Shown in pieces: positions 23,367-26,412 of a DNA stretch of 46,330 nt. Under the pieces are notes generated by a model. The model ran no database searches. It was not told the DNA's origin and saw nothing but the letters and a program-made list of their open reading frames with translations. Position 1 is the first letter of the stretch. Each line of letters begins with the position of its first letter. Origin of the DNA: Pelagibacteraceae bacterium AG-422-B15 (GTDB lineage: Bacteria; Pseudomonadota; Alphaproteobacteria; Pelagibacterales; AG-422-B15); contig CAJJBG010000014.1 of the NCBI GenBank assembly GCA_905182345.1, forward strand, positions 1 to 46,330. Direction: 5' to 3'. The position numbers and the translations under genes are program-made.

Positions 23367-23978
23367 TTATTTTTTAGAAATTAAAAAAATACCATCTTCA
23401 GCAAAAAAATTATCTATCCAACTTTTATTTTTAAAGTTTTCAATTAAGTGATTTTTTAAATTAGCTTTTTTTTCAATTTTTATATCTATTGTATTACACA
23501 GATCAATAAAGTCATAAATGGTACAAAAATGTAGATTTGGAGTTTCATACCATGAATAGCTTAACTGATCACTTACGGGCATAGTTCCATTTAGCATTAA
23601 ATGTAAACGAATTTTCCAATAGCCAAAATTAGGAAATGAAATAATAGCCTTATTAGATATTCTTACTAATTCTTCTAAAACTTCCTTGGGTTTTTTTGTT
23701 GCTTGTAGGGTGTAGGTTAAAATAGAAAAATCAAAGGAATTGTCTGGATAGTCAGATAAATCTTTGTCAGCATCCCCTTGAATCACTGAAATGCCTTTAG
23801 ATAGGCATTCACGAATTTTATCTTGATCAATTTCAAGCCCACGACCATGAATTTGTTTTTTATTCTCTAAGAAGTGAAGTAAGGAACCGTCGCCACAGCC
23901 AACATCAATTACACTTGATTTAGATGGTATAAGTTTTGCAATTATATCAAAATCTTTATTGGTATTAAACAAACTCAT
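23367..23978 (-). CDS. metW: Methionine biosynthesis protein MetW
   Basis: [59 protein letters not shown]. Confidence 0.93.
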
Positions 23979-25093
23979 AGCTTTTTATAGGTTGCATCTA
24001 GGAATTCTTCAACCGTAGAGAAAAACTCAGGCTCATCAAGTAAAAAAGAATCATGCCCTTTATCAGTAATAATTTCTACAAAACTAACATTTAAACTTAA
24101 TGCGTTAAATGTTTTTACTATTAATTTATTTTCAGCAGTAGGATATAGCCAATCACTTGAAAAGGATGCACATAATATATGTGATTTCGTGTCTTTAAAT
24201 GCCTTAATTAATGAGCCACCATGATCTGCTCCTAAATCAAAGTAATCCATAGCTCTGGTAATATACAGGTAGCTATTAGCATCAAAGCGATCTACAAACT
24301 TAAAACCCTGATGACGTAAATAGCTTTCTACCTGAAAGTCTGCATCAAAAGAAAATTCAATTTTACTTTTATTTTGTAAATTTCTACCAAATTTTTCATG
24401 TAGCGATTGTTCTGATAGATAACTAATATGAGCTGCCATTCTAGCAACAGACAAGCCTTTGATTGGCTTGGTGTTAAATTCATTATAATTGCCAGATTTC
24501 CACTCAGGATCTGCCATAATTGCTTGTCTTGCTAGCTCGTTAAGAGCAATATTCTGAGCAGAATGACTTGTGGTAGTAGCAATTGGTATTGCAGAAAAAA
24601 TATGATCTGGAAACTGTGATAGCCATTCAAGAACCAACATTCCACCCATGGATCCTCCAACAACTGAAAAAAGTTTAGTTATATTTAAGTTGTCTATTAA
24701 TAATTTCTGGGCCTTAACCATATCTGAAATAGTAATAACAGGAAAACTAAGTCCATATTCTTTTCCTGTTTCAGGATTTACCTCATTAGGACCAGTTGAT
24801 CCCATGCACCCACCAATTACATTGGGACATATTATAAAATACTTATCAGTATCGATAGATTTACCAGAACCTATTAAAAGTGACCACCAACCATTTTTCT
24901 TGGTAATAGGATGTTCACTTGCAACATATTGGTCTCCAGTTAAGGCATGGCAGACCAGTATGGCATTAGACTTATCTGAATTAAGTGTTCCATAGGTTGT
25001 ATAGGCTGTTTTAAATGGTCCAAGCGATTTTCCACAGTCTAAGACTAGGGGATTATTCTTGGATGCTAACTCTACAATTATATTTTCGTTCAT
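23975..25093 (-). CDS. metX: Homoserine O-acetyltransferase
   Basis: [64 protein letters not shown]; adjacent metW. Confidence 0.95.
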
Positions 25094-25121
25094 GTTTTAA
25101 AAAAAATTATACAGCATGCAT

Positions 25122-25153
25122 AAAAAAACCACCTAACAACTAAGCTTGGCGGT
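25122..25153 (-). terminator. Rho-independent terminator between the SAM-II-like aptamer and metX
   Basis: Minus strand ACCGCC-AAGCTTAGTTGTTA-GGTGGT-TTTTTT: 6-bp stem with one G-U pair, extendable across a bulge, followed by a U run. Confidence 0.75.
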
Positions 25154-25163
25154 CAATAGATCA

Positions 25164-25218
25164 CCTCTTTAGCTGTTTTTATTTTGCGCCCGCAAGCTGT
25201 AAATCAAATCAGCGCACC
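25164..25218 (-). ncRNA. SAM-II-type riboswitch aptamer upstream of metX
   Basis: Minus strand GGTGCGCTGATTTGATTTACAGCTTGCGGGCGCAAAATAAAAACAGCTAAAGAGG: P1 UGCGC/GCGCA, loop start UGAUUU, A-rich linker and GCUAAAG tail followed by a purine-rich SD-like stretch. From memory this matches the SAM-II (RF00521) layout, including the marine metX aptamer. Confidence 0.87.
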
Positions 25219-25221
25219 TTT

Positions 25222-25250
25222 TTCATACTATTTGATTGATTATAAGTCAA
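25222..25250 (-). promoter_or_regulatory. Putative sigma70-type promoter for the riboswitch-metX transcript
   Basis: Minus strand TTGACT (25250-25245), 17-nt spacer, TATGAA (25227-25222); predicted start falls just before the aptamer. Confidence 0.55.
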
Positions 25251-25326
25251 TTACGCAAATAAAATAATAATCAATTTTAAAAGAATTTCTTTAAAATTAG
25301 TCAATATTCACATATCAATTAGTTAA

Positions 25327-26412
25327 ATGATTAAAAGTAAAATTATAAAAAATATTAAAAATTACCAAGGTGGCAAAAGTGAAATTCTTGGAATGAAAAG
25401 TGTTATTAAGCTCTCATCCAATGAATCACCATTTGGTCCAAGTAAGAAAGTATTAAAAAAAATTAAAGAGCTATCTCTAAATACAAATAGATACCCAGAA
25501 AGTAATAGCATTGATTTAAAAAAGTCTATTTCCAAGAGACATAATATAGCTATTACCAACATTTTTTGTGCTAATGGTTCCGATGAAATTCTTGGATTAA
25601 TTTGTCAGTTATATTTAAACAAAGGTGATGAAGTTATTATTCCAAAAAATAGTTTTTTAATGTATGAAATTTATTCAAAAATTAATGGAGCTAAAATTAT
25701 AAATAGTCAGACAAACGATTTTGCTGTTAATACAGATAATATACTTAAAAAAATTACTAAAAAAACAAAAATTATATTTATAGCAAATCCAAATAATCCT
25801 ACAGGATTATCAATTCCAAAATCCAATTTAGATAATTTTATTAAAAAAATTCCAATACGAATATTAGTTGTTTTAGATGGTGCTTATGCTGAATATCTAG
25901 GTAATAAAAATTATGAAAGCGGTATGAGCTATGTTTCAAATTACAAAAATGTTCTTGTAACAAGAACATTCTCTAAAATTTATGGTTTAGCTTCATTAAG
26001 ATTGGGTTGGTGCTATGCTAATGAGAAAATTATAAGGCTACTTGATAAAATAAGAGGCCCATTTAATGTTAATAAAATTGCTCAAGCAGCAGGATCAATA
26101 GCTATATTAGAAAAAAGCATAGAAAAGAAGTTGATATCTCATAATACAATTTGGTTGAATAAAATTAAAGATGAGCTTAAGAAACTTCCATTAGTAATTT
26201 ATGATAGTGAGGCAAATTTTTTATTTATAAAGCTTAAAAAAGGTATAAAAGAAAAAGAAAATCTAAATAAATATTTATTAAACAAGTCTATCATTATAAG
26301 AACTTTAGATAACTACAATATTCATGACTGCATTAGAATTACAGTGGGAACTGCAAAAGAAAACTTAGTATTAATAAAATCTTTCAAATCCTTTTATAGC
26401 AATGAAAAATAA
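25327..26412 (+). CDS. hisC: Histidinol-phosphate aminotransferase
   Basis: KLSSNESPFGPSKKV; NPNNPTGLSIP; TRTFSKIYGLASLRLGWCYA. Confidence 0.92.
   Translation: MIKSKIIKNIKNYQGGKSEILGMKSVIKLSSNESPFGPSKKVLKKIKELSLNTNRYPESNSIDLKKSISKRHNIAITNIFCANGSDEILGLICQLYLNKGDEVIIPKNSFLMYEIYSKINGAKIINSQTNDFAVNTDNILKKITKKTKIIFIANPNNPTGLSIPKSNLDNFIKKIPIRILVVLDGAYAEYLGNKNYESGMSYVSNYKNVLVTRTFSKIYGLASLRLGWCYANEKIIRLLDKIRGPFNVNKIAQAAGSIAILEKSIEKKLISHNTIWLNKIKDELKKLPLVIYDSEANFLFIKLKKGIKEKENLNKYLLNKSIIIRTLDNYNIHDCIRITVGTAKENLVLIKSFKSFYSNEK

Follow-up and report, generated by a model that had tools for sequence, protein, structure and literature searches.

A divergent SAM-II riboswitch upstream of metX in a SAR11-order bacterium, with a predicted antiterminator between terminator loop and aptamer core

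Near-consensus promoters a few nucleotides before the P1 stem and terminators after P2 have been described for SAM-II riboswitches (Corbino 2005, PMC1273637), and among the riboswitches of alpha- and betaproteobacteria it is this class that most frequently comes with terminators, by mechanisms not established experimentally (Barrick & Breaker 2007, PMC2258182). Most SAM-II elements have been viewed as transcriptional and the crystallised metX RNA as translational (Huang & Lilley 2018). This metX RNA from the Sargasso Sea, studied by crystallography and smFRET, is described as acting by blocking the Shine-Dalgarno sequence (PMC10907184, PMC6061858, PMC9373788), and the sequence of the 52-nt RNA is listed in PMC8494917. 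In the SAM-II/SAM-V tandem before bhmT of Ca. Pelagibacter ubique, the SAM-II half of the full-length RNA is unresponsive to SAM, an effect for which the linker was found to be causal and which was called puzzling (Feng 2024, PMC11508383). How SAM-II aptamers drive terminators is thus still unproven, and structural work has centred on one RNA assumed to be translational.

The window considered here, a stretch of 46,330 nt, belongs to a 1.2-Mb genome of the same order as Ca. Pelagibacter, with a metX 86% identical to that of Pelagibacteraceae AG-422-B15 single-cell genomes. TTGACT-N17-TATGAA, an aptamer, a U-tailed hairpin and metX all lie on the minus strand at the place given by an earlier reading of the DNA letters (the sequence-only reading), as set out in Table 1. 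Since the promoter-aptamer-terminator order was already described in 2005, this layout is ordinary, and the locus adds one more member to a known class. Transcription is predicted to start near 25216, at about the first P1 nucleotide, and metW is presumably co-transcribed with metX. The leader sits in the divergent hisC/metX spacer, so that no upstream gene needs the terminator. Between hisC and the riboswitch promoter there is also a block resembling ATATGTGAATATTG..CTAATTTAAAG..AAATCTTT (window about 25272-25320), conserved in several family genera, which is perhaps a hisC promoter or operator.

Table 1. Features of the metX leader and downstream genes, in window coordinates
Feature	Position	Strand	Basis or remark
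-35-like hexamer TTGACT	25245..25250	-	sequence; TTGAC[A/T] kept in 43/43 family leaders
-10-like hexamer TATGAA	25222..25227	-	sequence; 17-nt spacing from TTGACT
SAM-II (RF00521) aptamer	about 25163..25217	-	cmscan 31.5 bits, E 4e-5; family alignment and pair counts
P1 stem	25216-25211 with 25190-25185	-	family alignment and pair counts
P2 pseudoknot core	GC 25193-25192 with 25173-25172; CUU 25196-25194 with AAG 25169-25167	-	
GCUAAAG of the aptamer	25173-25167	-	sequence
GAGG, Shine-Dalgarno-like, in P2 3' strand	25164..25167	-	sequence; metX ATG 70 nt downstream
Predicted antiterminator helix 1, 5' strand AACAGCUAA, overlapping the P2 core	25169..25177	-	9 bp with 25143-25135; minimum-energy fold, nascent RNA
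Predicted antiterminator helix 2, 5' strand GGUG	25162..25165	-	pairs with CGCC 25151-25148 in terminator 5' arm
Terminator 5' arm GACCGCC	25148..25154	-	hairpin evaluation; one G-C to A-U compensated pair in relatives
Terminator loop AAGCUUAGUUGUUA	25134..25147	-	14 nt
Predicted antiterminator helix 1, 3' strand UUAGUUGUU, within the terminator loop	25143-25135	-	
Terminator 3' arm GGUGGUU and U tract (U tract 25128-25122, seven Ts)	25122..25133	-	
Hairpin GACCGCC...GGTGGTT overall	25154-25127	-	
metX (homoserine O-acyltransferase), regulated gene	23975..25093; ATG 25093-25091	-	NCBIfam PRK00175 516.6 bits
metW	23367..23978	-	TIGR02081 258 bits; 4-nt overlap with metX

The match of the leader to RF00521 (SAM_alpha) covers model positions 1-79 and does not reach the gathering score of 36; genome-wide it is the best match to this model (E 1.4e-5), yet still under the cut-off, as is the RF01726 match (25.6 bits), and at gathering thresholds cmscan reports only a tRNA across the window. 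An RF02424 sRNA match, below its cut-off and on the opposite strand, mirrors the aptamer sequence and was rejected. As the Rfam score alone leaves doubt, relatives were used to decide identity. RF00521 has a match in 43 of 53 family genomes, one per genome and in all 12 that are at least 90% complete, and the gathering score is exceeded in 37 of the 53 (37-46 bits). Of the 43 leaders extracted, 42 come from relatives and one is the window's own; all stand just upstream of metX, whose products are 72-87% identical to the window's MetX (100% for its own copy), and promoter, aptamer and terminator follow in identical order in every one. TTGAC[A/T] lies at a near-fixed distance upstream in all 43 leaders; the -10 hexamer of the window is weak, with 4/6 positions, where most relatives carry TAATAC or TAATAA. 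The above-threshold RF00521 match whose absence the sequence-only reading had named as a refutation is missed by the window copy (31.5 against 36) and found in most of its homologues, which identifies the window copy as a divergent true member, and the SAM-II layout that had been proposed holds. The other search named there, with RF01826, gave no SAM-V match at the leader (cmscan, 24800-25600); the SAM-V of this genome is elsewhere, before bhmT.

The core GAUUUG / UUGC / GCUAAA is present in order together with the P1 stem, and in the 20 distinct family leaders it is invariant while the flanks drift. Family pair counts show the inner pairs of P1 never broken, and between L1 and the 3' strand of P2 95.7% of cells are standard pairs; most P2 pairs never vary, so that covariation there speaks neither for nor against the pseudoknot. 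P2a is very weak in the window. The genomic context is the one expected for SAM-II, with the methionine genes metX-metW downstream in an alphaproteobacterium. On these comparative grounds the SAM-II membership of the orthologous element can be regarded as secure despite the low window score, and the window leader is a divergent SAM-II riboswitch and a putative SAM sensor. A change of ligand to the spermidine type was considered and rejected, as that class derives from SAM-I and not from SAM-II.

An intrinsic terminator between aptamer and gene is conserved in all 43 family leaders, with 98% of stem cells paired and one pair that alternates between G-C and A-U by compensation. In the window the hairpin has about -8 kcal/mol. 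A generic terminator scanner found no terminator at the leader, because the loop measures 14 nt and the scanner allows at most 8.

The loop of this terminator offers a second pairing, in which UUAGUUGUU forms 9 bp with the P2 core strand AACAGCUAA of the aptamer. Folded up to the U tract, the leader adopts P1 and a second hairpin, AACAGCUAA/UUAGUUGUU, and GGUG pairs with the 5' arm of the terminator. RNAs that stop immediately short of the terminator 3' arm fold to P1 plus antiterminator in 19 of the 20 distinct family leaders and the full RNAs fold to the terminator in most of them, the window, L116 and L119 staying in the antiterminator, by predictions that ignore the pseudoknot, SAM and kinetics. 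The antiterminator is predicted to exclude both the pseudoknot and the terminator: coexistence is impossible because helix 1 uses P2 core bases and helix 2 the terminator 5' arm, and also because the single nucleotide (A25134) between the loop strand and the 3' arm cannot span a 9-bp helix.

Within the family, identity across the 20 distinct leaders is 96% for the loop segment that pairs and 72% for the linker before it, and 89% of all antiterminator cells are paired (helix 1 90%, helix 2 84%) compared with 27-51% when the partners are slid. Covariation in the antiterminator does not go beyond shuffles, its score being reached by 53 of 500, as the aptamer strand hardly varies. The pair 25163-25150 occurs as U-G, U-A and C-G, so that covariation of the terminator base leaves its pairing in the antiterminator intact. 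Shuffling the loop alone reproduces the 9 bp of the window in 0.5% of trials, and the corresponding frequencies for the other leaders, which are related to one another, run from 0.03% to about 34%, mostly 1-11%. Whole-leader folding energy gave no signal (z about 0). An antiterminator first picked by eye in the window, AGCUUGCGG of the aptamer with CCGCcAAGCU of the terminator, was dropped, as relatives have CCGCCAAACUUAG and the pairing is not conserved.

The reading we favour, with a probability of roughly 0.7, is that the SAM-II riboswitch represses metX(W) through premature transcription termination, with the loop-core helix as antiterminator. Sequence and comparison show the elements and how well they are conserved, together with pairings that exclude each other and the folds predicted for them; SAM binding, the start site and SAM-dependent termination are what we infer, as follows. 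Transcription would begin at about the first P1 nucleotide. With SAM bound, the P1/P2 pseudoknot would hold GCUAAAG and the following GAGGU, leaving the terminator arms GACCGCC/GGUGGUU to pair, so that the polymerase would stop in U7 and release a transcript of about 90-95 nt. If SAM is lacking, P1 would stay and P2 open; the terminator loop would then pair through UUAGUUGUU with the freed AACAGCUAA, and GGUG with CGCC in the terminator 5' arm, blocking the terminator and allowing metX to be transcribed. P1 is compatible with both states, in keeping with its being protected whether SAM is present or not, the response coming from P2 and L1. The RNA would accordingly form either the sensor or the anti-stop structure, not both, and metX would probably be off when SAM is plentiful. 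Homology and conservation support the earlier proposal of control by termination instead of Shine-Dalgarno sequestration, and so does the specific antiterminator, which the sequence-only reading had not seen; the mechanism is still something we infer.

Beyond the family, capture of the core by the terminator loop (at least 7 bp) was found in 32 of 35 distinct leaders with a terminator from the SAR11 order (Pelagibacterales; metX and bhmT) as against 3 of 48 from other Alphaproteobacteria, whereas pairing of the P2a strand with the terminator 5' arm (at least 6 bp) was found in 0/35 and 26/48, respectively. The core-capture counts refer to distinct sequences, related within groups and without phylogenetic correction, and leave aside two metF leaders of group g5, found with a covariance model after the idea had formed, which have a 9-bp complement to the core. 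In these two (L295, L298) a SAM-II element and a core-capturing terminator precede a metF-like gene. The loop sequences differ from gene to gene together with their targets: SAR11 bhmT leaders set a loop CGCUUUAGC against an aptamer GCUAAAGCG, the matched pair GCUAAAGCG/CGCUUUAGC occurring in L249, L254 and L295; the bhmT leader L159 has CUAUUUA against UAAAUAG, and metX leaders of group g9 have UUUAGCU against AGCUAAA. The bhmT leader of the window's own genome (L156 1395-1600; C7:91565-91735) is a SAM-II/SAM-V tandem whose terminator loop pairs with GCUAAAG. Its SAM-II half was missed by both Rfam SAM-II models and reaches 59.7 bits with model R1, which was built from order members with this very copy included. 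The window leader is most likely a transcriptional OFF switch, and its predicted platform is a variant common to much of the SAR11 order.

Core capture is absent in the metX leaders of g5, in g7 and in the Pelagibacter g6 metX leaders examined, and is therefore not universal in the order. These Pelagibacter g6 metX leaders (L160-L165, L167-L169, L171-L174, L316, L317, L319) have a U tract of about 7-9 nt directly after the aptamer, without a GC hairpin, and further downstream carry CTCACAATTC, in several cases also TCAGC, complementary to the aptamer 5' half (GAATTGCGAG, GCTGA). At most g6 SAM-V loci among L218-L247 a compact SAM-II-like element abuts SAM-V without a terminator, and AATCGGTAGGC between the two elements complements GCCGATT of the first aptamer. 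The E-class leader L182, from a distant alphaproteobacterium, shows a 12-bp match of terminator loop to aptamer core, hinting at an independent origin of core capture. Viral contigs held one distant metX only (58% identity, GC-rich), with about 90 nt upstream in the contig end, too short to judge a leader.

Control could instead be mainly translational, with the GAGG in the P2 strand serving as a distant or standby Shine-Dalgarno sequence for metX that is occluded by SAM, and the terminator acting as constitutive attenuation, as reported for Sinorhizobium metA. There, initiation at a start 74 nt downstream, beyond a terminator without a predicted antiterminator, depends on the GAGG of the SAM-II element (PMC9373788), and the earlier flat exclusion of the purine stretch in the window as ribosome-binding site of metX was thus too strong; the spacing in the window is 70 nt, and no clear Shine-Dalgarno sequence lies close to the metX ATG. 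The window leader has, unlike Sinorhizobium metA, a conserved predicted antiterminator, the A that follows GCUAAA is variable, and the place of the purine stretch in the aptamer consensus makes a ribosomal role unnecessary; g3 relatives, moreover, have GGA just before the metX ATG. We consider translational control unlikely at this locus.

It may also be asked whether terminator and aptamer are real but their complementarity is chance reinforced by shared descent, so that only P2 sterics or GGU/ACC pairing couple the two. Short AU-rich helices are easily found (for some leaders, about 11% of shuffled hairpins attain 8 bp), and the antiterminator covariation is weak. What speaks against this account is that the core is one and the same target for loops whose sequences vary among metX, bhmT and metF and from family to family, with aptamer and loop changing in step, that the loop is more conserved than the linker, and that core capture is rare in other Alphaproteobacteria; the account seems similarly improbable. 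Far less probable again is a decayed SAM-II relict that has lost SAM sensing and whose terminator merely dampens metX: the score below gathering and the weak P2a and -10 would suit it, but not a core that stays invariant amid drifting flanks. No single leader proves the loop-core antiterminator, the case for which rests on its recurrence with different sequences at three genes, on loop conservation and on the contrast with other Alphaproteobacteria. If it is right, ocean bacteria of very high abundance would offer a concrete switch helix that can be mutated.

Compared with the described metA element RF00521 (Corbino 2005, PMC1273637), the window leader shares P1 and an H-type pseudoknot P2, the same core, a promoter just before P1, a terminator after P2 and a methionine gene downstream; it differs from the class in its score of 31.5 bits, the very weak P2a and a terminator loop that targets the P2 core. 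In most other alphaproteobacterial leaders examined, by contrast, the 3' strand of P2a pairs with the terminator 5' arm. In Sinorhizobium meliloti metA, too, a terminator and about 70 nt in all separate the GAGG of the aptamer from the start codon, but there no SAM-II-driven antiterminator could be predicted by the authors, whereas one is predicted in the window; S. meliloti metZ resembles the window in its predicted SAM-driven termination (both PMC9373788). What appears new here is a conserved terminator loop that pairs with the SAM-II P2 core as antiterminator, no earlier description of which was found in the SAM-II literature searched, Poiata 2009 and Gilbert 2008 lying outside that search.

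The bhmT tandem of Ca. P. ubique (Feng 2024, PMC11508383; PMC9481103) also has SAM-II followed by a terminator, in which CGCUUUAG (nt 66-73) is complementary to CUAAAGCG of the aptamer (nt 45-52); the window leader differs in lacking SAM-V and in the sequence and register of its loop. The three oligos of Feng 2024 match locus L235, where these two segments can pair. Those on the U tract and further downstream restored SAM-II binding; as this rescue lies downstream of the 45-52/66-73 pairing and is not specifically predicted by it, that study was rejected as direct proof and gives support by consistency only. The exact 52-mer of the Sargasso Sea RNA, for its part, was found upstream of metX in a SAR11-order genome of the g9 group (L158/L272; G185 C3:53488-53562). 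At this native locus the aptamer runs straight into GCCCAGUUUAGCUGGGC-U9 (GCCCAGTTTAGCTGGGC-T9 as DNA), where UUUAGCU complements AGCUAAA, and metX begins after the U tract, a possible earlier AUG being absent in several relatives, which suggests that the native RNA is under transcriptional control. The odds seem to us about even that all of the following hold together: that SAM-II elements of the SAR11 order share a platform in which the loop, not the P2a strand, captures the core; that the crystallised Sargasso Sea metX SAM-II is natively such a transcription attenuator; and that this antiterminator accounts for the unexplained loss of SAM binding by SAM-II in the full-length tandem before bhmT. 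Should the loop-core antiterminator be right, the level at which the best-studied SAM-II RNA regulates would deserve a second look, and the silence of SAM-II in the full-length Pelagibacter tandem would have a simple account.
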